Of a stretch of DNA of 54,703 bases, positions 19,979 to 50,123 are shown in pieces. A program made the position numbers and the translations under genes. The stretch is from Palleronia pontilimi (GTDB lineage Bacteria; Pseudomonadota; Alphaproteobacteria; Rhodobacterales; Rhodobacteraceae): assembly GCF_016412875.1 (NCBI RefSeq), contig NZ_JAEKPD010000019.1, positions 1 to 54,703 on the forward strand. Direction: 5' to 3'. Within the stretch, counting starts at the first letter, position 1; every line of letters begins with the position of its first letter. A model generated the notes under the pieces. The model did no database searches and had not been told where the DNA came from. It worked only from the letters and a program-made list of their open reading frames with translations.

Positions 19979-21154
19979 TTACCGAACGAGCTCCACAACC
20001 TCGCCGCTCTTGCCGGTTGCGAAGCGCCCCCAGGCGTCCATCAGCGCCCGGCGCCGGTCGAAGAGATCGGAGCGCGCATAGGCCCGCTCGACCTCGTTGC
20101 CGGTGGCATGGGACAGCGCGGCCTCGGCCACCTCGCGATCAGCATGGGCGCTCTCACTGCACCAGTCGCGAAAGGTGGAGCGGAAGCCGTGCACCGTGAA
20201 CCCGTCCGCACCCATGCGGCCGAAGAGCGGCTTGAAGGCCATGACGGAAAGGGGCTGCGCCTTGTGGTCCTTGCCGCGCTTCGGGCTGGGAAAGACGTAG
20301 ACCGGATCGAGGCCGCGGACCTTCTCAAGGACGGTCCGCGCCTCGGGTGAGAGCGGCACGCGATGGGTCAGCCCCCGTTTCATTCGCGCGTCGGGCACCA
20401 GCCAGATACCTGCGTCGAGATCGAACTCGGACCATTCCGCGCCCCGGACCTCGCCGCTGCGGAGCGCGGTCAGGATCAGGAACTCGAGACAGCGGGCAGA
20501 GACCGCCTCGCGCGCCGCAAGCTGCGCCATGAAGGCGGGCAATTCGCGCCAGGGCAGCGCCGCCATGTGCTCGGCCTTCCGCTTCACGGCAGGCAGCGCC
20601 TTCTTCAGCCCCGCCACCGGGTTTTCGTGGGGATAATGCCCCGCCCCTTTCGCCCAGTCGAAGACGGCGGCGATGCGCTGTTTCACCCGGCGCGCGGTGT
20701 CATGCTTTTTCGCCCAGATCGGGTTCAGGATGCTCAGGACATCGGCAGAGGTTATCGACTGGATCGGACGCTTGCCGATCCTGGGAAAGGCGTAGAGCTC
20801 GAGCGAGCGCAACCAGAGCTCCGCGTGACGGTCGCTCTTGAGGGTGCGGGAGAGCGATGCGTGGTGACGCTTCGCGGCCTCCTCGAAGCTCAGCTCTTCG
20901 CGCTTTCTCAGCAGGTCCGGGTCGCGCCCCGACCGGGCCTCGGTCCGTAACTTCCGTGCCTCTTCGCGGGCTTCGGCGAGGCTCATCCAGGCCAAGCTGC
21001 CTAGCCCCAGATCGCGCCGTCGGCCGTGAACGAGGGTCCTCAGGATCCAGGATTTCGCGCCGGTCGGCCCTACCCGGAGGTAGAGACCATTGCCATCACC
21101 GTACATCCCCGGCTTGCGGGTTGCAGCGACGCGCTTGACCGACAGACGTCCCAT
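19979..21154 (-). CDS. Tyrosine recombinase/integrase (DUF4102 type)
   Basis: A 391-residue P4/CP4-57-like integrase. Residues 1-90 are the DUF4102 arm-binding domain (GLYLRVGPTGAKSWILR), then a SAM-like core-binding domain, then the catalytic domain with the first arginine in ALRSGEVRG, the HGFRSTFRDW box, a late histidine in LSHATGN, and the nucleophile tyrosine in AYARSDLFDRRRALMDAW. All catalytic residues are present, so it should be active. It converges on traD. A strong repeat array lies just upstream of its start. No tRNA gene is found next to it, so the attachment site is not identified. Confidence 0.94.
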   Translation of the reverse strand: MGRLSVKRVAATRKPGMYGDGNGLYLRVGPTGAKSWILRTLVHGRRRDLGLGSLAWMSLAEAREEARKLRTEARSGRDPDLLRKREELSFEEAAKRHHASLSRTLKSDRHAELWLRSLELYAFPRIGKRPIQSITSADVLSILNPIWAKKHDTARRVKQRIAAVFDWAKGAGHYPHENPVAGLKKALPAVKRKAEHMAALPWRELPAFMAQLAAREAVSARCLEFLILTALRSGEVRGAEWSEFDLDAGIWLVPDARMKRGLTHRVPLSPEARTVLEKVRGLDPVYVFPSPKRGKDHKAQPLSVMAFKPLFGRMGADGFTVHGFRSTFRDWCSESAHADREVAEAALSHATGNEVERAYARSDLFDRRRALMDAWGRFATGKSGEVVELVR

Positions 21155-37911: not shown

Positions 37912-39081
37912 TCAATAAGGCAGGCCCACGTAATTCTCGGCCATGGCCTGCTGCGCGGCGGCGTTTGAGCGCAAGAACTCCAGCTCGGCCACCTGGATGC
38001 GGTGGTCGAACGCGGTCTGGTCCGGGTAGCGGTGCAGCAGCGACGAGAACCACCACGAGAATCGCTCGGCCTTCCAGACCCGGGCCAGCGCGCGGTCCGA
38101 GTAGCCGTCCAGCCCGTCGGGGCTGCCGGTCCCGTAGAACCGGCGCAAGGCGGTGTAGAGATAGTGCACATCCGACGCGGCCAGGTTCAGGCCCTTCGCG
38201 CCGGTGGGCGGCACGATATGGGCGGCGTCGCCGCACAGAAACAGCCGCCCGAAGCGCATGGGTTCGGTCACGAAGGACCGCAGCGGGGCGATGGATTTCT
38301 CGATCGACGGCCCAGTGACCAGCCGGTCGGCCTGCGCGGTCGGGATGCGGCGCTTCAGCTCGTCCCAAAAGGCGGCGTCGGTCCAGTCATCGGGGCTGTC
38401 GGACAGCGCGCACTGGATGTAGTAGCGCGACAGGGTATCGTTGCGCATGGAGCAAAGCGCGAAGCCGCGCTCGGAATTGGCGTAGATCAGTTCGTCGTTG
38501 ACGGGCGGCGTTTCCGACATGATGCCGAGCCAGCCGAAGGGATAGACCTTTTCGAATTCGCGCCGCGCGCCGGGCGGGATCGACCGGCGGCTGACGCCGT
38601 GAAACCCGTCGCAGCCCGCGATGAAGTCGCAGTCGATGCGCTGCTGCGTGTCGTCTGTGGAGTAGGTGACATTAGGGGTTTCGGTATCGGCACCGTGGAT
38701 CTGCACGTCCTCGACACTGAAGACGATCTGTCCGCCCGCCCGCTCGCGCGCGGCGTAGAGATCGCGCGTCACTTCCGTCTGGCCGTAGACCTTGACCGCC
38801 GTGCCGGTCAGCGCGGCGAAGTCGATGCGAAAGATCTCGTCCCCGTAGGAAATCAGCGTGCCGTCGTGGGGCATCCCCTCGGCGTGCAGGCGGTCCGCGC
38901 ATCCGGCTTCTTCCAGGAGCGCCACCAGACCGCGTTCCAGCACCCCCGCGCGGATGCGCGACAGGACATGGGCCTTGGTCCTGCGTTCCAGCACGACGCT
39001 GTCGATCCCGCGCGTGCCGAGCAGCTGCGACAACAGCAGCCCCGACGGCCCGCCGCCGATGATCGCGACCTGCGTCTTCAT
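37912..39081 (-). CDS. pobA: 4-hydroxybenzoate 3-monooxygenase
   Basis: A 389-residue flavin hydroxylase turning 4-hydroxybenzoate into protocatechuate with NAD(P)H and oxygen. It shows IIGGGPSGLLLSQLL for FAD binding, the DG motif in IAGCDGFHGVSR, and the GD motif in LFLCGDAAHIVPPTGAKGLN, with SERGFALCSMRN around the substrate pocket. Length and motifs are those of Pseudomonas PobA. No pobR regulator or protocatechuate dioxygenase genes are in the window, so downstream steps must be encoded elsewhere. It points the same way as the ABC operon but is 233 bases upstream of it, probably a separate unit. Confidence 0.94.
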   Translation of the reverse strand: MKTQVAIIGGGPSGLLLSQLLGTRGIDSVVLERRTKAHVLSRIRAGVLERGLVALLEEAGCADRLHAEGMPHDGTLISYGDEIFRIDFAALTGTAVKVYGQTEVTRDLYAARERAGGQIVFSVEDVQIHGADTETPNVTYSTDDTQQRIDCDFIAGCDGFHGVSRRSIPPGARREFEKVYPFGWLGIMSETPPVNDELIYANSERGFALCSMRNDTLSRYYIQCALSDSPDDWTDAAFWDELKRRIPTAQADRLVTGPSIEKSIAPLRSFVTEPMRFGRLFLCGDAAHIVPPTGAKGLNLAASDVHYLYTALRRFYGTGSPDGLDGYSDRALARVWKAERFSWWFSSLLHRYPDQTAFDHRIQVAELEFLRSNAAAQQAMAENYVGLPY

Positions 39082-39180: not shown

Positions 39181-39666
39181 TCAGAGCACCAGGGGCAGCT
39201 TCAGATACGCGCCGGGAAGCACCACCCCGTTGCCGCGTGGCGCCGGGTCGAGCCTGACGGGACGCAGGCGGTCATAGACCAGGTGGAAGACGTAGCCATA
39301 GGCGGTGTAGGCGATGGTCAGACCCAGATTGACCGCAAGCGCTTCGGCCAATCCGTGGCCGAACCAGACCAGGATCGGACAGGTCAGAAGCACGGCGCTG
39401 GCCTCGTGCGACATGGCGTGGACCAGCCGCAGGGATTTCGGCCTTTGGCACGCGGTCCGGCCCGTCATGCGCCAGTCGGCAAGATCGAACAGCGTGTTGT
39501 GCAGCGGCGACCAGAGCACGATGACCACCGACAAGAGCGCGATGACCTGGACGCCGTGGCCCAGGCTTGCCCCGAAGATCGCGGTATAGACCGGGGCGAC
39601 CAGGGCGATGCCGATGACTTCGAAACATCCGGTCTGGCACGCGCGCTCTTTCCACGATCTCAGCAT
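39181..39666 (-). CDS. PACE-family efflux/BTP-domain membrane protein
   Basis: A 161-residue membrane protein with two tandem BTP (bacterial transmembrane pair) units, four helices in all. The start at 39666 has GGGGGAGGG shortly upstream; an in-frame codon at 39681 is less likely. The conserved FEVIGIALVAPVY, SPLHNTLFDLADW, HEASAVLLTCPI and AYTAYGYVFHLVYD segments match PACE transporters, such as AceI, that export chlorhexidine and short diamines. The natural substrate is unknown. Confidence 0.85.
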   Translation of the reverse strand: MLRSWKERACQTGCFEVIGIALVAPVYTAIFGASLGHGVQVIALLSVVIVLWSPLHNTLFDLADWRMTGRTACQRPKSLRLVHAMSHEASAVLLTCPILVWFGHGLAEALAVNLGLTIAYTAYGYVFHLVYDRLRPVRLDPAPRGNGVVLPGAYLKLPLVL

Positions 39667-40192
39667 CACGCCCTCCCCCAAGGTGATCCGTGCCGCCCGT
39701 CGGCCGATGATCCCGTGTCGGATCTGGCGGCCAAGGGCGGGATCGCGCGGAGCGGGCCGCGCGATCCGTGTAATAAACGGCCGCGTCCTGGTCCGATTAC
39801 TCGGGGGACGCGACCGTGGCTAAAAATGTTTTCGTCATGAAAGCGGTTACTCCGAAGCGAAACCCCGTTGGAATTGGGGTCCGCTCAGAACATCGGTTGA
39901 AAATTGAGTGCCGGAAAAAAAGACATCCCAACTCGCTAAAACCAAGGCCGAAATATGGCCCCTCATCACCACGCACCTGCGGAAACCAGTCGGGCGATCA
40001 GTCCTATTCTCGGTCCTGTCTACGCCCGTGCCGTGCATGGCGATTTCCCCACTCGTTCGTCGCGTTGCCCGAAACGGGCGATATCTTTAATGCCGTAAGC
40101 ATGCATCACGGGGCGGCCGCGGTCTGTGAACTGGATCACGTAACGGAAGGTTTTATGCTTTTCTCTGCCGCGGCGGCGCAGAGGAGACGCCG
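39667..40192. other. Gap with a CRP-like site, no supported gene
   Basis: About 525 bases. It includes a small inverted repeat (CGCGTCC at 39782-39788 and GGACGCG at 39806-39812), a run of lower GC around 39825-39990, and a CRP-consensus-like site at 40125-40140. No open frame looks like a protein. The PACE gene promoter must lie at the left side. Confidence 0.45.
40125..40140. promoter_or_regulatory. CRP/FNR-type binding site candidate
   Basis: TGTGA, six bases, TCACG: one mismatch from the CRP consensus TGTGA-N6-TCACA. It lies about 50 bases beyond the stop of the CRP-like gene and 460 bases upstream of the PACE gene, so which promoter it could serve is unclear. Chance is possible. Confidence 0.4.
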
Positions 40193-40870
40193 CTAGAGCG
40201 AGACGTCGAGATAGATGTCCTGCAGCGCATCGGGGTCCTGGACGACCAGCTTGCCGCGCCCCAGCTTGACGATGCCGTCGCGCCGCCACCCGGTCAGCAC
40301 CTTCGACACGGCCTCGCGCGTGGCGCCCACGTGGTCGGCCAGCTCGGCCTGGGACATGGGCAGAACGGTGCCGTCGCCGACGCTGGTCAGAAGCCAGGCG
40401 ATGCGGCGGGCCAGTCTTATGGGCAGCGGTTGAAACGCCTGAAGCTCGAGCTGGGAGCTGACCCAGCTGAGCCTGCTGACCGCCAGTTGCACCATGGCAA
40501 GCGCCAGGTCGGGATCCGAACGCATCCGCGACAGCAGCACGTCGCGCCCGACACGGACAAGGCGGCTGGGCTGGCGCGCCGAGACGGTCGCGCTGCGCGT
40601 GCCCCGCTCGAAGACGGCCACTTCGCCGAACACCGCGCCGGGCGACAGAACGTTCAGCACCAGCTTGCGCCCGTCTTCGGCCAGCGCGCTGATATCCAGA
40701 AGACCGTCCTGCAGGGCGAAGATCGCGTCGGCGGGGTCGCCCTGCTCGAACAGGATTTCGCCGGCCGACAGCTTCACCGGTGTCGCGTCGTCGCCGAGGC
40801 GCGTCAGAAGGCGGTCGCGGCACGCCGAGGCGTGCTGTGCATCCGGGCCGGGTCCGTCGATCTCGGTCAT
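40193..40870 (-). CDS. CRP-like transcriptional regulator
   Basis: A 225-residue Crp/Fnr-family regulator. The cyclic-nucleotide domain contains FGEVAVFERGTRSATVSA, with the Gly-Glu pair (82-83) and Arg92-Ser93 of the phosphate-binding cassette intact, as in CRP; no FNR-type cysteine cluster is present. The C-terminal winged helix reads SQAELADHVGATREAVSKVLTGWRRDG. So it more likely binds cAMP (or cGMP) than senses oxygen. ATG at 40870 was preferred over a TTG two codons upstream. It is divergent from the membrane cNMP-domain gene at 41020, with about 150 bases between. Confidence 0.88.
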   Translation of the reverse strand: MTEIDGPGPDAQHASACRDRLLTRLGDDATPVKLSAGEILFEQGDPADAIFALQDGLLDISALAEDGRKLVLNVLSPGAVFGEVAVFERGTRSATVSARQPSRLVRVGRDVLLSRMRSDPDLALAMVQLAVSRLSWVSSQLELQAFQPLPIRLARRIAWLLTSVGDGTVLPMSQAELADHVGATREAVSKVLTGWRRDGIVKLGRGKLVVQDPDALQDIYLDVSL

Positions 40871-41019
40871 CTGCAAGCCCCATCACGAAACGCACTGGTC
40901 CCGGGCGTCGGCACTGCTCGAGGACACGTCCTGCCTACGCAGGTGCGCGGGCCTTGTCGAGCGTCGCGCATCCGACAAGCGGCTTGCACGCGCGGTGTCT
41001 AACCCCCTAGAAAAGCGCC

Positions 41020-41736
41020 ATGATCCTTGGCCCCGATCCTTCGATATCCGGTCTTGCGCCAACGATCGGCGTGATCGGCGCGGTGATCTACATCAGCGCC
41101 TACGGGCTGATGCAGATGGGATTCCTGCGCGGCCAGAGCTACGCCTATGCGTCGCTGGTCCTTGTCGCCGCCAGCTGCGTTGCCATCAGCGCGGTCGCCC
41201 CGCCCAACCCGGCGGTCTTCTTCATGCAGGTCTTCTATATCGCGATCAGCGTGCTCGGCATCTCGCGCATCGCGGTGAACGCGATGATGTTGCGCTCGAC
41301 CCCCGAAGAACGCGCCTTCATCAAGGCCCACCTGCCCGATCTGCGGCCCGAGCATGTGCGCCCGCTTCTGAAGCTGGGAACGTGGCGCGATATCGGCGCC
41401 GACGAGGTCCTGACCCGCGAAGGCGAACGGGTTCCGCAATTCTACTACCTGGCCCGCGGCACGGCGCGGGTGGTGATGGGCGGCAAGCAGGTCGGCACCT
41501 GCGACGATTGCCTGATCGGTGAATTGACCCTGTTGACAGGTCTGCCCGCGACAGCGACCGTCATCACGAACGAGCCTTGCCGGGTGCTGGCGTTCGACGC
41601 GCGGCGCCTGCAGGCGCTTCTTCGCAAGCGAAGCGAGATCAAGCTTGCGGTCATCGCGGGGTTCGCGGACGCCACGAAAACCCTGCTGATGCGCCGCAAC
41701 CGCGAGGCGCTGACCGACGCGCCGCTGCGGGATTGA
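41020..41736 (+). CDS. Popeye-like membrane protein with cNMP-binding domain
   Basis: A 238-residue protein. Three hydrophobic helices (about 13-33, 43-60 and 66-88) are followed by a cyclic-nucleotide-binding fold (about 110-225), the layout of Popeye-domain proteins. The phosphate-binding cassette reads IGELTLLTGLPATATV: the Gly-Glu pair is present, but the usual Arg after Pro is Ala. This is common in membrane-bound bacterial relatives and may mean altered or absent cAMP binding. It sits between the CRP-like regulator and the decarboxylase-fold gene. Function unknown; a membrane cAMP sensor is a fair inference. Confidence 0.78.
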   Translation: MILGPDPSISGLAPTIGVIGAVIYISAYGLMQMGFLRGQSYAYASLVLVAASCVAISAVAPPNPAVFFMQVFYIAISVLGISRIAVNAMMLRSTPEERAFIKAHLPDLRPEHVRPLLKLGTWRDIGADEVLTREGERVPQFYYLARGTARVVMGGKQVGTCDDCLIGELTLLTGLPATATVITNEPCRVLAFDARRLQALLRKRSEIKLAVIAGFADATKTLLMRRNREALTDAPLRD

Positions 41737-41787
41737 CGCGCGCGACCCGGAGCCACGGTGCGCGCCCCAGAGAGAGGGAGACGACCC

Positions 41788-43122
41788 ATGAGCACCGAGC
41801 CAGGCCACCCGTTGCAGCAGCCCCACATCACCGCCGACGATGCCTGGCGGCTTTACTGCGCCTGGGCGGGCTTCGGTTGCGAGATGGTGAAGCGCCCCCT
41901 GGCCTTGTCGGGCACCGCCGGTGTGCGCCTGGCCGACGCTGTGGCCAGGGGCATCCTGGGTGCGGAAAGCCCCAGGGCGCTGGCCCGGATGGCCGCGCGC
42001 GAGGCCGGGCAACTGGCGGTCGACATGCTGGCCGTGCCGTCGTCGGCAGCCGCCACGGCCGCCGCGCATTTCGACGAGGCGCAGGCCCCGTCCCAGGACC
42101 GCCTGGCGCGCGCCCTGGCGGGCACCGATCCGGTGGCGACGATCACCCGGGTCGATGTCGACCCCAATCTGGCCGAGGCGCAGTGGCGCGAGCTGACCGC
42201 GCGCTCGGGCGTCGACGTGGATGCGCCGGTGCCCGAGTTCGCGCCGACGACCGGCGCGCCCTTCCTGTTGCCCGCGCGGGTTCTGGACGCGTCGCAGGCC
42301 TGGGCCGCGTGGTTCGTGCCGCTGGACGCAGCCCGGCGCCTGCTGGCGGAGGCCTGCGAGACCGGCCACCAGCCGCCCGAGGTGCTGGATGCCTTCGCGC
42401 CGGTAGCGGTGGGCGATGGCGGGGTGCTGGTGTCGCTGGTGGCATCGGATTACCGCGCCTCGGATTTCGGGGTCGTGCAGGAAATCGGGCTGAGCCTGAC
42501 CGTGTCGCCGCGCGCCGCCCGCTTCCCCGGTCCCGGACAGCTGTTCCTGCGGCTGATCGTGACGCATCCCTATTCGTTGGGCGCGGCGCGGCAGATCTGG
42601 GGCATCCGCAAGGATCTGCACGACAATGCCAGCGCCGAACCGCGCTCGCGCTTCCAGGTGGCCTATGGGGCCGACCGGGTCCGGTTCGGACAGGGCGCGC
42701 TGCAATCGCGCGCGGTTCGGTCCAGCGGCACGTTGCAGCTGGCCTTCCCGCGGCTGGGGCGCGGGCGCAGCGACCGGGTGCCGGGGCTGATCCATTCGAT
42801 GGTCGCCCCGCACGGCCCCCCGGCGGCGGCGGTCGCACCGGCACGATCCGTGCTGATGCGCAGCGGCACCGGCGAGGGCGTCCAGGTCCGCGGCGACGTG
42901 CGGCTGACCCTGCCCGCCGACCGCGCGGCGGGGCTGCAGGCGGGATGCCTCTGCCGCGGGGGGATGGCGTGCCTGTGCGACACGCTGCGCGGGCTGGGTC
43001 TGGATCGCAGGCGACCCGCGGCCAACGGTTGGACCGAACGGCTGACCTGCACGCTGGCCGAGCCGGTGCGGATCGGCGCTCAGTCGTCCGACGGCGCCGG
43101 AAACACCTCGTCGAAGGCCTGA
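41788..43122 (+). CDS. Acetoacetate-decarboxylase-fold protein with helical N-terminal extension
   Basis: A 444-residue protein starting at an ATG with GAGGGAG upstream. Residues about 1-100 are an amphipathic, Ala-rich helical segment that resembles phasins in composition, followed by an acetoacetate-decarboxylase-superfamily domain (about 140-420). The catalytic region of Clostridium ADC, GRELSAYPKKL, corresponds here to [11 protein letters not shown]: Lys275 is kept, but the second Lys is Asp276. GVVQEIGL corresponds to the ADC glutamate segment. The cysteine cluster [11 protein letters not shown] near 390 is unusual. Schiff-base chemistry on a keto-acid is possible but unproven. The 3' end overlaps the convergent flavoprotein gene by 43 bases. 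Confidence 0.72.
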
Positions 43123-44999
43123 CGCCAGCCCTGGTCGACGCCGGACGCCGCGCGGGCGGCATAGGCGAAGGGCCGCATCGCCGTGGCCGCGGCCGACATC
43201 ATCGCCGACGGCACGGTGTCGGGCACCACGATGTCCACGGGCCGCCCCGCGCCGGTCTTGCGCCGCACGGCCTCGGCCGCCATCAGCCCGCTCATGGCCG
43301 CGGCCTCGATCGTGACCACGTCGATGGGCGTTTGCACGAAATCGCCCGCGATGGTCAGGCCGGGGATCTCGGTCGTGGTGCGGGGCCGTGAATTCCAGGT
43401 ATCGACCGCGTTGATGAACAGCTCTTCGCCCGCGTTGGTCTGCAGGTGGGTGCGGCAATGCAGGATGTCGGCCTCGGGGTCGAAGCGCACGTAGCGGCGC
43501 ATCTCGGCCAGCAATTCCTCGATGATGACCTTCATGCCGCCGGGCTTGTCGACATAGGGCATCAGCGTCTGCGCGTCCGACGCACACACGCTGATCATGT
43601 GCTCGCGCGGCTCCTCTCCCGCCTCCGAGCGCCACATCTGCGTGTTGTCGTACAGGCTCATCTCGTATTTCGAGTTCAGCAGGTTGACGATTCCGCGCGG
43701 CAACGGACGCTCGAGTGGGCCGCGAAACACCACGTCGAGCGTCATGATCGGCGCGCTGTGCAGCCGCGTGGCATTGGCCAGGTGCGGATCGGCCGCGGCC
43801 AGGCAGGTCCGGGCGTCGGCCTTTTCATAGCCCGCGCGGGTATAGGCCAGGGTGGCCAGCTGGCGCGGCGGCACCGTCAGGATGATCTGCCCGCCGAAGC
43901 GCCATAGCCCGCCCTGATAGAAATCGCGCTTTTGGTCGTACCCGGGCTGCGGCCCGGGCGAGCGGTCCAGCTTGTCGACGCGCAGCATGAATTCGCCGGT
44001 CTCGAAGTCGATCTCGATCCCCGTCAGCTCGCACAGCGGGATGATCTTCAGGCTGGGCAGCGCGTCGCGTTCGGCCGCGCTGCGCTCCAGCGTCTCGAAA
44101 TGCGCAATCGCGTCGCTGAAGACGGGCCGGTCGCGAAAGATCTCGCCTTCGACATCGAACTGCCCGACCAGACCCGCGAGGGTCTTCAGCCACGGGGTGA
44201 AGATCGCCTCGGACGTGTCGCCGTCCAGCAGCCACATGGTGGGATCGGGCAGCCGCGCGCCGTATTTGACGAAAGACCGGTAGGTCGACGCGGACGCCAT
44301 CGACGTCGAGGCGGCGAATGCCTTCGCCAGCACGCGGTGGCTGGATTTGCGCGACGCGGGCGTGGTGTAGCCATGGTCGAGCAGGAAAGCCTCGACGCTC
44401 ATCTTGTCGAGCCGCCGGTCCGCGCGTTCGGGCAACGCCAGAAGATCCAGCATGGATTGGCCGTGCAGGAACATGTCGACGGGCGTGTTCACGCCGCATC
44501 CGAGGTTGCTGAGCGCGGTCCAGGGCGATCCGGGATTGACCACCCGGTAAGCCTGGGCGTCGGGGTCGGCGGGCTGGTGGCAGATATCGCTGATCGGCAC
44601 GAACCGGTCGACGGCGCCGATGTCGCGCATCAGGCCCCAGAAGTTGTGATACCAGTTCAGGTACATGTGGTAGCAGTGCTCGTGGCGGTCGTCGAACCGC
44701 TTGTCCTGGCAGCAGGGGTCGGTGCAGGTGTCGCAGAGGCGGCGCCCGAACGGGCCCGGATCTTCGGTCAGAGGGGCATCGACCTCAAAGCCGTGCTTGT
44801 TGTGGCGCTGGTCGTCCCAGTCCGTATGGGTGCCGAGCTTGCCGCCGACATATGAGTTCGCTTCCAGCAGGGTCACGTCGTGGCCGCGTTCCAGAAGACG
44901 GTGCGCCGCCGACAGGCCCGCGACCCCCGCGCCCACAATTATGACGTGTGGCCGGGGACTTGGCGCTACCGGATAAGGGACTTCTCCATCCAAATACAT
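43080..44999 (-). CDS. Carotenoid-desaturase-like FAD oxidoreductase
   Basis: A 639-residue flavoprotein related to phytoene desaturases and hydroxysqualene dehydroxylase HpnE. The Rossmann motif is [28 protein letters not shown], and near the C-terminus [25 protein letters not shown] closes the FAD site. The conserved EHG...H segment is split by an insertion containing CDTCTDPCC (residues 89-97) and C109. It also has a C-terminal tail of about 70 residues. GGTGGA precedes the ATG. Given the neighbouring isoprenyl diphosphate synthase, an isoprenoid is the likely substrate. It is read opposite to its neighbours and its start is divergent from the first phasin-like gene. Confidence 0.8.
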
Positions 45000-45068
45000 T
45001 GCGTTTCCACCGTTTGCGGGTCAGGGTGCCGATACAAATGGTTAACACGCGGGGGCCGGGGCCTGTCC

Positions 45069-45380
45069 ATGACTTTGCATCCCACACGCATGGCGATCAC
45101 CGCGGCTCGCGGTTACGGGGCGCTGGTTGCAAGCTGTGCCGATGTGAGCGGCCAGGCGCTGCGCGCCACCGCGGGCGAAAGCGCCGAAGTGGCGCAGGCG
45201 CTCGCGCAGGCCCTGCGCGCGCCCGACACCGCGCGCAGTGCGGCGACCGAGCGGGCCATGTGGATCGCCTACCACGCCCAGCGCCGCCAGCTGCAGATGA
45301 TGCGCGGCTACGCGTCGCTCTTCGGCATGACGCTTCTGAACACCCTCGACGCCGCCGGGACGCAGCGCCGCGCCCCCTGA
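45069..45380 (+). CDS. Small helical phasin-like protein
   Basis: A 103-residue Ala-rich helical protein with no signal peptide or membrane helix. Its pattern (GALVASCADVSGQALRATAGESAEVAQALAQAL) is amphipathic, as in phasins that coat polyhydroxyalkanoate granules or other hydrophobic surfaces. I do not recognise a specific family; the phasin label is from composition and context. It is followed 20 bases later by another helical gene. The ATG at 45069 is the first of two possible starts. Confidence 0.55.
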   Translation: MTLHPTRMAITAARGYGALVASCADVSGQALRATAGESAEVAQALAQALRAPDTARSAATERAMWIAYHAQRRQLQMMRGYASLFGMTLLNTLDAAGTQRRAP

Positions 45381-45400
45381 ACGACCGAAAGGACCCTGCA

Positions 45401-45898
45401 ATGACAAGCACTGGCCCCGATTCATCCGGACCTGCAGCGGAAGAAGGCCGACAGGACGGCACCGGCGGGCTGGCCGGATCGCTGGCAGGCCTTCTGGAAG
45501 GCTACGCGCGGATCATGTCCCAGATCGCCGGGGGCGGACCGGGGGCGGCGGACGGGGCGCGGATCGGCTCGACCGCCGCTTTGATCGAGGCAGGCTCGAT
45601 CGCGTCCGGCAGCGCGCTGCGCTATTCCCAGCGCCTGACCGAGCTTTTCGCGCGGCACCAATCGGCGCTGATCGAGGCCATCCCTGCCCATCTGTCGGGC
45701 CAGGATCTGCCGCCCGACAGGGCCCGGGCCGAGGTCGAAAGCCTGCGGCGCTTCCTGCGCGAAGTGGGCGAGACCGCGATGCTGGAAGCGCGGCGGCTGG
45801 ACCACGAGCTGGCGCAGCTGGGCGAAGCGGTGGCACAGGGCGTCGCGGATCCGGTCTCGGCCGAGGATTTCCAGCGCCGCGCGGAAGCCAAGCTGTGA
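45401..45898 (+). CDS. Phasin-like helical protein
   Basis: A 165-residue protein. After a Gly/Ser/Asp-rich disordered start (1-27) it is almost wholly helical: GSLAGLLEGYARIMSQIA, SALRYSQRLTELFARHQSALIEAIPAHL, then two further charged helices. This resembles phasin_2-type proteins. An AAAGGA site precedes the ATG. Its stop overlaps the start of the isoprenyl synthase gene (GTGA), so their production is coupled; a stoichiometric link between coat or scaffold and enzyme is suggested. Confidence 0.6.
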   Translation: MTSTGPDSSGPAAEEGRQDGTGGLAGSLAGLLEGYARIMSQIAGGGPGAADGARIGSTAALIEAGSIASGSALRYSQRLTELFARHQSALIEAIPAHLSGQDLPPDRARAEVESLRRFLREVGETAMLEARRLDHELAQLGEAVAQGVADPVSAEDFQRRAEAKL

Positions 45899-46845
45899 AC
45901 GACACGGCCAGCCTGGACAGCACCAGCGCATCGGTCATCGACGCGCTGGGTTTTTCGGCCGAGATGTCCGAACTGCGCGAGCGCATCGCCGCCTGGGTCG
46001 CGGGCTGCGACGACGAGATGCGCGAGGCGCTGGAGTGGCAGTTCATGAGCGGGTCGAAGTATTTCCGCCCGCTGACCATCTTCGCCTGCCACCGCGCGAT
46101 GTATGGCGCCGCACCGATCCCGGAGCGGGTGATCCAGTCGGCGCTGGTGATCGAGCTTTTCCACAACGTGTCGCTGGTGATCGACGATATCGTCGACCGC
46201 TCGCCCGAGAGGCGCGGCCGCGCGACGATGCACACCAAGTTCGGCGAGCTGTCGGCGCTGATGACGTCGGGCTACATCGTGGCGGAGGGCTACCTGCAGC
46301 TGGGCGACGACCTGCAGGGGATTTCGCTGTTTTCGGAGCTTCTGAAGCGGCTGGGCGTGGCCGAGTGCCTGCAATGGCGGTTGCGCCGACAGCCGTTGGG
46401 ATACGAGGATTGGTGGCATATCGCGGGCGAGGATACCGGCTCGATGTTCGAGATCTGCGCCTGCCTGGGCGACCGGTCCGGCAAGCTCAGGACCTATGGC
46501 GGGCTGCTGGGGCGGCTCTATCACGGCTGCGACGACGTGGCCGACGTGCGTGGCCTGCCGGCACTGGGCGGGGGTGGCAAGGAAGACCTGCGCGACGGCA
46601 TCCTGACGCTGCCCGCATCGCTTGCCATCGCGGACGACACCGTGTCCGCGGCCTTCTGTCGGCCCGACCCCACCGATGCCGACCTCGAAATCGCCAAGGC
46701 GGCCTTCCTGAAGGCCCTGCCCGCGTCCGAGGCGAAGCTGGACGACATCGCCCGGCAGGCCCGGCAGGAGGCCCGGCTTTTCGCCACCGACACGGCCGCG
46801 CTGGATGCGCTGATCGAGCAGACGCGCGCGCTCAGCGGCCGCTAG
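45895..46845 (+). CDS. Trans-isoprenyl diphosphate synthase
   Basis: A 316-residue polyprenyl-synthetase-family enzyme, starting with GTG overlapping the previous stop. The first aspartate-rich motif is DDIVD (97-101) followed by ERRGR; the second is DDVAD (213-217); GKxxDLRDG matches GGGKEDLRDG. The IPP-binding GGKRxRP region is GSKYFRP, keeping Lys and the last Arg. All residues needed for head-to-tail condensation of IPP are there, so it should be active. Product length cannot be read safely; the residues just before the first motif (LFHNVSLVI) contain no large aromatic at the -4/-5 position except Phe at -8, so a C20 or longer product is possible. Confidence 0.83.
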   Translation: MNDTASLDSTSASVIDALGFSAEMSELRERIAAWVAGCDDEMREALEWQFMSGSKYFRPLTIFACHRAMYGAAPIPERVIQSALVIELFHNVSLVIDDIVDRSPERRGRATMHTKFGELSALMTSGYIVAEGYLQLGDDLQGISLFSELLKRLGVAECLQWRLRRQPLGYEDWWHIAGEDTGSMFEICACLGDRSGKLRTYGGLLGRLYHGCDDVADVRGLPALGGGGKEDLRDGILTLPASLAIADDTVSAAFCRPDPTDADLEIAKAAFLKALPASEAKLDDIARQARQEARLFATDTAALDALIEQTRALSGR

Positions 46846-46899
46846 CGCGCACCGGGCTCGGGGCCGATGCGACCGCTCGCCGCGGTGCGTCGGCGGGAC

Positions 46900-46955
46900 T
46901 TTACCCGTTGGGGAAAATTTAGCAATCTTGTCAAGGGGTCACCCGCTCGGGTAAA
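46900..46955. repeat. Inverted repeat upstream of the cyclase gene
   Basis: TTTACCCG (46900-46907) and CGGGTAAA (46948-46955) form an 8-base perfect inverted repeat with 40 bases between; ACCCG-CT-CGGGT (46941-46952) is itself a small palindrome inside. It ends 24 bases before the cyclase start, a suitable place for an operator. Confidence 0.55.
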
Positions 46956-46979
46956 ATCCGTGCCAAGGGGGAAGCATAG

Positions 46980-49900
46980 ATGTCCGAACAGCGACTGCGG
47001 GCATTTCTGGATGCCCTCGATCTGTCCGAGTATTTCGACGTGCTTGCCGCCGAGCAAGTGACGCTGGACGATCTTGCGATCCTGTCGGATTCGGACCTGG
47101 AAGGTCTGGGTCTGCGACTGGGTCCCCGGCGGCGCCTGATGAAGGCCGCGCAGAGCGAGCTTTCGCAGCCCGACAACGTCGTGGGCGAGCGGCGCAACCT
47201 GACGGTTCTGTTCTGCGACATGGTCGGCTCGACCGAGATCGCGTCGCGGCTGGACCCCGAGGATCTGCGTTCCCACCTGCGCGCCTACCGCCAGGCCTGC
47301 ATCACCGCGATCGAGACCGAAAGCGGGTTCGTGGCGCACCGCATGGGTGACGGTCTGATGGCGCATTTCGGCTACCCGCGCGCGCTGGAAGACGCCGCGA
47401 TCCGCGCCGTGCGCGCCGGGCTCGAGATCATCACGCGGGCGCGCAGCCTGTCTTCCGTGGTCGGCCCCGTCGAGGTGCGCGTCGGCATCGCCAGCGGCCT
47501 GACCGTGATCGAGGAAACCCGCCCGGGCTTCGTGGCCAACGACGAGTTGGCGACCGGCGCAACGCTGTCGCTTGCGGCACGGCTGCAGAACCTGGCCCCG
47601 CCGGGCGGGGTGGTCGTATCGGATGCCACACGGCGGCTTTTGCGCGGCACGTTCGAGCTGCATCCCCTGGGCCGACAGGCGGTGAAGGGCTTTTCCGACG
47701 AAGAAACGATCTGGCAGGTCACCCGCGAGGCCCATCTTGATCCGGAAGGCACCGAAGCGCTGCCCTCGCGCGGGGCGATGATCGGGCGGCACCGCGAGCA
47801 GGCCGAACTGCTGTCGCTGTGGCAGGACGGGCTGCACGGCCAGGGCGGCGCCGTCGTGGTGCAGGGCGAGCCAGGGATCGGCAAGTCCCGCCTTCTGGCC
47901 GAGCTGCGCGGCGCGGCGCAACGGGATGGCGATATCGTGGATCTGCACTGCTCACCCTATCGTCACGGTGCAGCGCTGCACCCGGTGACGGAATGGCTGA
48001 GCGCCGAGTTCGGCGTCGAGTCCGCCGCCGATCCCGCCGCGGCGCTTGGCGAGCTTCCGGGCACCACGCCAGAAAGCCTGCCGTACCTGGTCGGCGCGTT
48101 GGGCCTGAGCGCCGGGCCGCACGCGCCCGACATGGATCCGGCGGACCGCCACGCCGCCACCATCGACGCGGTCGTCGCGCTTCTGGAAGCATCGGCCCAG
48201 CGCGCGCGCCTGCTGACGGTCGAGGACATCCAATGGGCCGACGCGGCGACCCTGGACGTGCTGGACCGCTTGGCCGAGCGCGCGAAAGAGCATCCGCTGC
48301 TGCTGGTGGCGACCGCAAGGCCCGACGCGGGTCGGCTGCCCGCGGCGCCCGCGCTGCGCAAAATCGCCCTGGGACCGTTGCCGTCCGACGCCACCGACGC
48401 GCTGATCGCCGCCCAGGCCGGTGCCGACGCCCTGCCCGACGACGTGCGCCGGACCATCGCCGAGCGCTCGGGCGGGGTGCCGTTCTTCACCGAGGAACTG
48501 ACGCAAGCGGTGCTGGAACAGCCCGACGGCGACGCAAGCGCCGTGCCCTTCACGCTGCAGGACACCCTGATGGCGCGCCTGGACCGGCTGGACGCGGGCA
48601 AGCCGGTGGCCCAGATCGGTGCGCTGATCGGGCGGCGCTTTTCCACCGACCTGCTGATCGCCTGCGCCGATCTATCGGAAGACCAGGTGCGGGCCGGCCT
48701 GGCCGAGCTCGAAGGCGCGAACCTGATCGAGAAGGGGCGCCAGTCGGATCACGCGTTCCGCCACGCGCTGCTGCGCGACACGGCCTATGGCTCGCTGCTG
48801 CGCTCGCGGCGGATCGCGCTGCACCGCCGGGTGGCCGAGACGATCGAGACGCGGTTCCAGGCGCTGACCGAGGCGCAGCCCGAAACGCTGGCCTATCACT
48901 ATTCCGAAGCCGGCGATCTGGAGACCGCGCTGCAATACTGGGAACGCGCCGCCGAGCAGAGCATCGCGCAAGGTGCCATGGCGTCGGCGATTTCGTATTT
49001 CCGGACCGCGCTCGAGCTGATCGGACGCCAGCCCGCCACGGCCGCGCGCGACCAACAGGAAGCCGCGCTGCGCATCCGTCTGAACATGCCGCTGACGGCC
49101 ACCACGGGGTTCGCGTCGGACCAGGTCGAGCAGAACCTGGCGCGGCTGGCGGGCCTCTTCGAGATGTCCGAACCCGGCGAGGCCGCTTTGCAGCTGCTCT
49201 GGAGCAGGTGCATGTCGGCGCTGGTGCGCGCCGACATGGTCTCGGCCCGCACCACGGCGCTGCAGATGAAGCGCGCGACCGAGAATTCGCGCCTGCCGAA
49301 CGCCTACAGGATGCCCGAGCGGATCCTGGGCTACGTCGCCATGCTCGAAGGCGAGCTGGACGCGGCCGAGGCCCATTTCGACCGCGTGCTGGACGGCTAC
49401 GCGCCCGACGCGCACGATTCGATCCTGCCGGGCCATCCGTTCGACGTGCTGGCCGCGACGCTCGCGCAGCAGACCATCCTGATGGCCCTGCGCGACCGCC
49501 CCGAGCGGGTCGAGCTGAACCATGTCCGCGCGCTGGAACGCGCCCGCGCGCTCGACAATTCGGCGACGCTGTTTCAGGTGCTGGTGCATCTGTGCATCGC
49601 GCGGATCGAGATGGGCGATTTCGACGCCGTTCCGCCGCTGCTGGAGGAGTTGCGCGAGGTGGTGGAACGCGGCGAGCTTGCACCGCTCTACGCCGATCTG
49701 TGGGATGGGTGGCTGAAGGCGCGGCGCGGCGCGCTGGAGGACGGGCTGACCAAGATGGCCGAGGCGCAGGGCGAAGGCGGGCAATACCCGCTTTGGGTGC
49801 CCAGCGCGATGCTGCTGCGGGCCACGCTGCTGCGTGACGCGGGCCGGTTGGACGAGGCCCTGGCGCTGGTCGATGACTGCGAGGCCGAGATCGAGCGCTC

Positions 49901-50123
49901 GCGCCATCTTTACCTGTTGTCGGAGGTGCGACGCCATCGGGCCGCCTGCCTGCACGCCATGGGCGCGTCGGACTCGACGGTGGCCGAGCTGTTGCAGGAC
50001 GCGGCTGACCTGGCGCGACGACAGGGGGCAACCCGGTTCGAACGCGCCGCCAGCGAAGATCTGGCGGGGCTCACCGGATCCGGGGCCCACGGCCTGACCC
50101 CGAGCGGAATGGCCGACGCCTAG
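46980..50123 (+). CDS. SAM-class III cyclase-AAA ATPase-TPR signalling protein
   Basis: A 1047-residue soluble protein. Residues 1-60 are a SAM domain (LRAFLDALDLSEYFDVL). Residues about 70-235 are a class III adenylate/guanylate cyclase domain with metal-binding Asp80 (LFCDMVGSTE) and Asp124 (HRMGDGLMAHFG). Residues about 265-600 are an AAA/STAND-type ATPase with Walker A GEPGIGKS (296-303). The rest is TPR-like helical repeats. This architecture occurs in many Alphaproteobacteria, where signal input is thought to act through the ATPase/TPR part. A GGGGGA ribosome site precedes the ATG. It is a likely source of the cyclic nucleotide for the nearby cNMP-domain proteins, which is inference. 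Confidence 0.9.
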   Translation: MSEQRLRAFLDALDLSEYFDVLAAEQVTLDDLAILSDSDLEGLGLRLGPRRRLMKAAQSELSQPDNVVGERRNLTVLFCDMVGSTEIASRLDPEDLRSHLRAYRQACITAIETESGFVAHRMGDGLMAHFGYPRALEDAAIRAVRAGLEIITRARSLSSVVGPVEVRVGIASGLTVIEETRPGFVANDELATGATLSLAARLQNLAPPGGVVVSDATRRLLRGTFELHPLGRQAVKGFSDEETIWQVTREAHLDPEGTEALPSRGAMIGRHREQAELLSLWQDGLHGQGGAVVVQGEPGIGKSRLLAELRGAAQRDGDIVDLHCSPYRHGAALHPVTEWLSAEFGVESAADPAAALGELPGTTPESLPYLVGALGLSAGPHAPDMDPADRHAATIDAVVALLEASAQRARLLTVEDIQWADAATLDVLDRLAERAKEHPLLLVATARPDAGRLPAAPALRKIALGPLPSDATDALIAAQAGADALPDDVRRTIAERSGGVPFFTEELTQAVLEQPDGDASAVPFTLQDTLMARLDRLDAGKPVAQIGALIGRRFSTDLLIACADLSEDQVRAGLAELEGANLIEKGRQSDHAFRHALLRDTAYGSLLRSRRIALHRRVAETIETRFQALTEAQPETLAYHYSEAGDLETALQYWERAAEQSIAQGAMASAISYFRTALELIGRQPATAARDQQEAALRIRLNMPLTATTGFASDQVEQNLARLAGLFEMSEPGEAALQLLWSRCMSALVRADMVSARTTALQMKRATENSRLPNAYRMPERILGYVAMLEGELDAAEAHFDRVLDGYAPDAHDSILPGHPFDVLAATLAQQTILMALRDRPERVELNHVRALERARALDNSATLFQVLVHLCIARIEMGDFDAVPPLLEELREVVERGELAPLYADLWDGWLKARRGALEDGLTKMAEAQGEGGQYPLWVPSAMLLRATLLRDAGRLDEALALVDDCEAEIERSRHLYLLSEVRRHRAACLHAMGASDSTVAELLQDAADLARRQGATRFERAASEDLAGLTGSGAHGLTPSGMADA

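Follow-up and report, generated by a model that had tools for sequence, protein, structure and literature searches.

An apparently unnamed bacterial gene system with a predicted long-chain isoprenoid product and a cyclase-like protein

Do the eight genes that sequence reading and gene calls place at positions 40193-50123 of a 54,703-nucleotide stretch from Palleronia pontilimi (contig NZ_JAEKPD010000019.1; the whole stretch analysed, hereafter the window) form one system, and what would such a system make? A first-pass annotation had proposed a single system that makes or modifies an isoprenoid, in or on a membrane or granule and under cyclic AMP (cAMP) control. Its gene positions, the coupling of a polyprenyl synthase gene to its upstream neighbour through the bases GTGA, the flavoprotein, the CRP-type regulator and the class III cyclase-domain protein were all confirmed by gene calls and by Pfam and NCBIfam scans of ten proteins from the window region. 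What emerged looks like a real system without a name, present in few scattered bacteria and with a long isoprenoid chain as predicted product; searches of open-licence literature returned no description of this gene combination among the matches listed.

Conservation of a four-gene unit

Four of the genes are kept together in 4/4 carriers, namely the window's own genome (G000), a genome of another genus (G999) and two congeners from a third genus (G856 and G1132). They encode the flavoprotein (43080-44999, - strand), a trans-polyprenyl diphosphate synthase (45895-46845, + strand), the 165-amino acid, predicted helical protein H2 (45401-45898, + strand), counterparts of which lie 5' of the synthase in every carrier, and a protein with SAM, class III cyclase-like, AAA_16 and TPR domains as assigned by Pfam (46980-50123, + strand). 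The flanks differ: in the window the locus lies between pobA-like and PACE transporter genes to one side and a GT87 gene to the other, in G999 it is flanked by RNase H, and in G856 and G1132 by purM-purN. Because synteny is conserved between carriers with different flanks, the four genes constitute a conserved unit that occupies different chromosomal sites in three genera, rather than homologues scattered without a conserved neighbourhood.

The gene order in G999 is acetoacetate decarboxylase-like (ADC-like; -), flavoprotein (+), H1, H2, synthase, cyclase and CRP (the last five all -), with identities to the window of 47, 54, 50, 49, 76, 51 and 49%, respectively; the CRP relative (locus L009; 48.7% over 199 amino acids by tblastn) follows the cyclase gene. 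In G856, an H2-synthase pair (+) is convergent with a flavoprotein-cyclase pair (-), and G1132 has the same arrangement, with identities to G856 of 52 (H2), 88 (synthase), 85 (flavoprotein) and 74% (cyclase). Three further genes, for the ADC-like protein, H1 and CRP, are those of the branch formed by the window and G999; they are present in two of the four carriers, and no relatives of them were found in the 19.5 and 19 kb examined of G856 and G1132. Between these two congeners, dN/dS was 0.09 for the synthase, 0.09 for the flavoprotein, 0.21 for the cyclase and 0.33 for H2, indicating purifying selection.

The unit is rare. Among 394 genomes of the family (393 genera), three matched the flavoprotein at E<=1e-10, which were the window's own, G999 (54%) and G856 (35-37%, in two pieces). 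A synthase profile search of a 394-genome sample, equal in size and tallies to that of the flavoprotein search, returned the identical three genomes at E<=1e-50 and no other, the scores of these three being inflated by the profile having been built from them. For independent genomes, the two other carriers would coincide between the two proteins by chance with a probability of about 1.3e-5. Wider class and phylum samples held the flavoprotein in the own genome only (1/385 at 1e-30, a limit too strict for a relative as distant as that of G856 at 1.5e-27; 1/398 at 1e-15), and a wider sample likewise held the synthase in the own genome only (1/289 at 1e-45). Up to three candidates per genome were scored in the flavoprotein class, phylum and family samples and up to five in the synthase family sample. 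Within the genus of G856, the synthase is carried by 2/5 genomes. The flavoprotein was found neither in viral contigs or plasmids (E<=1e-20) nor in phages (E<=1e-5), and searches of plasmids with the ADC-like protein and the synthase found no match. Two loci from the flavoprotein scan of genome contigs were not counted as relatives, their matches covering no more than the FAD-binding N-terminus (residues 8-74 and 19-73).

We tentatively read the locus as a transferable biosynthesis-plus-sensor module, in which the prenyl synthase with H2 would supply the flavoprotein and, in one branch, an ADC-like enzyme, and in which the cyclase-like AAA protein would act as sensor. This is the reading that fits best, and we hold it with some reserve.

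Prenyl synthase and small helical proteins

The synthase passed the PF00348 test (99.1 bits against a cut-off of 27; E = 3.2e-28) and carries the motifs DDIVD and DDVAD, of which D97, D98, D101, D213, D214 and D217 are invariant in all four carriers; its relatives in G999, G856 and G1132 are 76, 58 and 59% identical. A first motif of the DDxxD type, as here, is that of medium- and long-chain prenyl synthases, and the enzyme would make a linear all-trans prenyl diphosphate. In G999, ispH (LytB family, 4.5e-95; L009:14112-15116), which encodes a supplier of prenyl precursors, lies 2.4 kb past the ADC-like gene, which may be a coincidence.

Among NCBIfam models, the synthase best matches NF041169, the cargo model of family 2B encapsulins, whose operons likewise combine a polyprenyl synthase with a cyclic-nucleotide-binding theme. 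An encapsulin system is nevertheless probably not present: the score of 76.9 bits lies far under the cut-off of 450, no capsid family was detected among the ten window proteins scanned, and the match starts at residue 25, which leaves no room for the N-terminal domain of 50-100 residues that one report gives for this kind of cargo (PMC8346489).

H2 and its counterparts (160-165 amino acids) are weakly conserved (window versus G1132, E = 1.4e-5; versus G856, not significant). Their genes overlap the synthase gene by four bases in the window (GTGA), G856 and G1132 and touch it in G999. In the predicted model of H2 (mean pLDDT 66.4), two long helices span residues 51-98 and 105-147, with block pLDDT values of 59 to 91 there; compared with the PDB by Foldseek, the model had no match at E<=0.001. 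Another PDB scan of H2 gave a designed protein as its best match (E = 0.016). A small, predicted helical protein whose gene accompanies that of a DDxxD synthase recalls the heteromeric prenyl synthases HexA/HexB and HepS/HepT, and one review states that HexA, the small subunit, may govern chain length together with HexB (PMC7839719). H2 could accordingly be a non-catalytic small subunit that sets chain length, with no granule or coat. We regard this as possible and on the whole unlikely: homology of H2 to such a subunit was not detected in the PDB, Pfam and NCBIfam scans made, H2 is more variable than the synthase (dN/dS 0.33 versus 0.09), and the synthase, which retains both Asp motifs, could work alone. 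In the biosynthesis-plus-sensor module, the helical hairpin of H2 would act with the synthase as a partner or membrane anchor.

The first-pass annotation had called H1 and H2 phasin-like and suggested a granule. H1 (45069-45380, + strand; 103 amino acids, probably helical) is 50% identical over 88 amino acids to its G999 relative, and neither Pfam nor NCBIfam gave a match for it at E<=0.001; no common origin of H1 and H2 could be shown. In favour of H1, H2 and the helical N-terminal part of the ADC-like protein coating a lipid or polymer body, amphipathic helices stood out against shuffled sequences for H2 of the window (0/1000 shuffles reaching the observed moment) and G999 (12/1000) and for the ADC-like N-terminal parts of the window (3/1000) and G999 (1/1000), and the modelled two-helix hairpin of H2 would be compatible with a coat. 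Amphipathicity was not significant for H1 of the window (75/1000) and G999 (184/1000) or for H2 of G856 (162/1000), H2 lacks a Foldseek match at E<=0.001, and no phasin family model matched H1, H2, the ADC-like N-terminal part or the relatives scanned (Pfam and NCBIfam; NCBIfam only for H2 of G999). The phasin and granule labels thus find no family support and mixed support from amphipathic helices, and a coat is improbable.

Flavoprotein

The description of the flavoprotein as carotenoid-desaturase-like held up: it is HpnE/desaturase-like (PF01593, 4e-14), and the NCBIfam model that best matches the window, G999 and G856 proteins is HpnE (TIGR03467). At 92.3 bits against the HpnE cut-off of 283.05, the window protein resembles HpnE and the phytoene and zeta-carotene desaturases at family level, but it scores under all the curated cut-offs shown, no synthase gene lies head-to-head beside its gene, and together with the G999 protein it carries a Cys-rich insert. 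This cluster, CxxCx4C plus HEHC, is lacking in G856 and G1132. Aligned relatives are 55, 35 and 34% identical (G999, G856 and G1132). Within the module, the flavoprotein would oxidise or isomerise the prenyl product at a membrane surface.

HpnE as best match, together with two strong squalene/phytoene-synthase matches elsewhere in the window's genome (contigs C1 and C24) with desaturase-like genes alongside, as named from sequence, could alternatively point to a side branch of carotenoid or hopanoid (HpnE-type) metabolism. We consider this very improbable. The HpnE score lies far under the cut-off, and no locus protein scanned matched SQS_PSY. Matches to this family above 150 bits were found in G000 (two), G856 (one) and G009, a congener of the window (one), while G999 and G1132 had one match each, above cut-off at 75.9 and 71.9 bits and confined to model positions 2-171 or 2-172 of 263, in frames of 257-260 amino acids that resemble a different family member. 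That two of the four carriers show only a partial match speaks against a function in carotenoids or squalene, and the locus is probably of neither kind.

As a separate observation, contig C1 of G000 carries crtB-, crtI- and magnesium-chelatase-like genes (L035:6422-10841) and C24 a second crt-like set, the names being read from sequence and SQS_PSY alone being assigned by family search; the organism may be photosynthetic and carotenoid-making.

ADC-like protein

The ADC-like gene (41788-43122, + strand; 444 amino acids) overlaps the flavoprotein gene tail to tail by 43 bases. Its product comprises an amphipathic helical N-terminal part (about residues 14-95), a putative ADC-type core with Lys275 in the motif IWGIRK, and a C-terminal CxC-x5-CxC. 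Lys275 is kept in both proteins available (window and G999), and members of the ADC family use a catalytic Lys; both proteins also share CxC-x5-CxC, and it is a guess that the Cys motifs of the ADC-like protein and the flavoprotein bind metal. IWGIRK aligns with the motifs GREGWGFAK and GREIWGFNK of ADC proteins (PF06314), the register being kept at IWGIRK275 in a single hhalign comparison of the window/G999 pair with four of them (E = 0.056); the window protein differs from that family in its helical N-terminal part and C-terminal CxC-x5-CxC, and is itself below detection. In the module, the ADC-like enzyme would use Lys275 to act on a carbonyl product. A search of 13 congeners of the window did not find the protein, a weak match in G020 having been discarded for stop codons in its frame.

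Signalling proteins

The cyclase-like protein passed the PF00211 domain test (52.7 bits against a cut-off of 21.9). In class III cyclases, two Asp residues bind metal, a Lys recognises adenine, and an Asn and an Arg stabilise the transition state. Across seven cyclase domains compared, including that of the window, the two metal Asps and the Arg are present in 7/7, the Lys in 2/7 (G009 and Rufibacter) and the Asn in 4/7. With its cyclase-AAA-TPR arrangement, the window protein resembles TIGR03903 (438.9 bits over residues 62-1029), the model of TOMM-type kinase/cyclase AAA proteins, but it scores below the cut-off of 705.75, has no kinase domain and begins with a SAM domain.

The CRP-type regulator (40193-40876, - strand) has the two domains of a CRP/FNR regulator (cNMP_binding, 7.2e-22; HTH_Crp_2, 4.9e-17; Pfam), and its cNMP cassette, read from sequence, presumably fits the consensus. 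In the module, the SAM-cyclase-AAA-TPR protein would sense a ligand or the state of the pathway and signal to this regulator, either through an unusual nucleotide or only by binding.

The membrane protein (41020-41736, + strand) had been called Popeye-like, which does not stand: its sole Pfam match at E<=1 is PF00027 (8.2e-12), and NCBIfam assigns its membrane part to CBU_0592 (NF047864; 63.3 bits against a cut-off of 25) besides cNMP models. Its cNMP cassette, as read from sequence, lacks the usual phosphate-binding Arg. At E<=1e-8 it occurs in 1/17 genomes, its own, and in none of G999, G856, G1132 and 13 congeners of the window, and it probably lies outside the conserved module.

Fused and parallel loci

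Searched for PF06314, 16 genomes (the own included) yielded a true ADC in the congener G006 and a weak match in the congener G009. The latter is the C-terminal part of a 950-amino acid protein whose N-terminal part is HpnE/desaturase-like, and the cyclase-AAA-TPR gene that follows is 26% identical to that of the window over 704 amino acids. This fusion was found in 1/17 genomes searched and is thus absent from the carriers of the window's module. In G006 (L016:304-3640), the true ADC stands between patatin-like and SDR-like genes, named from sequence only, and perhaps serves in polyhydroxybutyrate breakdown.

Relatives of the fusion protein occur in 11 plasmid records from four genera (Qingshengfaniella, Catenovulum, Azospirillum and Rufibacter). 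In Qingshengfaniella, genes for the fusion (the tblastn match spans all of it), a cyclase-AAA protein and Crp are consecutive. Catenovulum has an ADC gene followed by a flavoprotein of the fusion's kind; in the incomplete gene table of that stretch, a diguanylate cyclase is given and no AAA or adenylate/guanylate cyclase gene. The Azospirillum plasmid (L021:8953-15651; 1/8 records examined) encodes a flavoprotein, an outer-membrane transport protein, an ADC, a second related flavoprotein and a kinase-AAA_16 protein cut by the end of the stretch, and in Rufibacter a kinase-AAA-GAF-cyclase gene adjoins the flavoprotein. A 317-amino acid neighbour in Rufibacter was rejected as ADC, having neither a Pfam match nor an alignment as such. 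A fusion or adjacent ADC gene is therefore found in three of the four plasmid genera (not Rufibacter), and a class III cyclase domain in two (Qingshengfaniella and Rufibacter).

Weighing of the module

Several results weigh against the biosynthesis-plus-sensor module or parts of it. The window flavoprotein is only distantly related to the fusion-type flavoprotein (hhalign E = 3.5e-12 over 88 N-terminal columns), no synthase match lies within 18.2 kb of the fusion in G009, and the fusion-type loci may be parallel to that of the window rather than the same system; given this distance, they lend support by recurrence and not by orthology. Between window and G999, dN/dS was 0.33 to 0.70. The decarboxylase fold proposed at the outset fares unevenly: the window protein matches nothing in Pfam, and its 47% identical G999 relative comes near the PF06314 cut-off (28.5 bits, just under 29.8; E = 1.4e-6). 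Nothing was gained by hhalign of the pair with the true ADC of G006 (E = 0.51) or the ADC part of the fusion (E = 0.8), blastp to the G006 ADC gave E = 0.002 over 56 amino acids for the G999 relative and 0.063 over 16 amino acids for the window protein, and AlphaFold on two sequences reached a pLDDT of 29.2. Membership of the window protein in the ADC family is shaky on these comparisons.

Control by cAMP is likewise weakened. The window cyclase keeps the metal Asps and the Arg, but because His and Ser stand in place of the Lys and Asn, cAMP production by it appears doubtful. One strict TGTGA-type pattern found no CRP-type site in ten intergenic stretches. In favour of a link, G999 and Qingshengfaniella each have a Crp gene after that for the cyclase. 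The proposal of one isoprenoid system thus survives as the best fit, with its core grouping conserved, without its Popeye and phasin labels and with cAMP in doubt.

A more elaborate version, speculative and quite improbable, is a shell-free factory borne on a membrane or droplet, in which amphipathic helical proteins would gather the synthase, flavoprotein and ADC-fold enzyme for the synthesis of a long-chain isoprenoid not described before, either a ketone or a hydrocarbon; a cyclase-like AAA protein of altered specificity would sense the product and signal to the linked CRP-type regulator, and the flavoprotein-ADC-cyclase core would recur, diverged or fused, in other Pseudomonadota. That the genes are neighbours by chance is scarcely credible for the core, which has stayed grouped in four genomes from three genera and with flanks that differ between the genera, even if the membrane cNMP protein is confined to its own genome among 17 and the ADC-like protein is missing from all 13 congeners.

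If the biosynthesis-plus-sensor module is real, it would be an unnamed isoprenoid pathway of scattered occurrence that includes a sensor and could be studied genetically in alphaproteobacteria. The HpnE-like flavoprotein and the ADC-type enzyme, which occur fused in some genomes, would gain a product and a role, and isoprenoid synthesis would be linked to cyclic-nucleotide-type proteins in a further case alongside the family 2B encapsulins.

Neighbouring genes

On one side of the locus, the window encodes an FAD monooxygenase (37912-39081; PF01494), presumably resembling 4-hydroxybenzoate hydroxylase, and a PACE-type efflux transporter (39181-39681). A tyrosine integrase with an Arm-binding domain (19979-21154) lies near a GC-rich stretch at 16-30 kb, which is possibly an integrated element.

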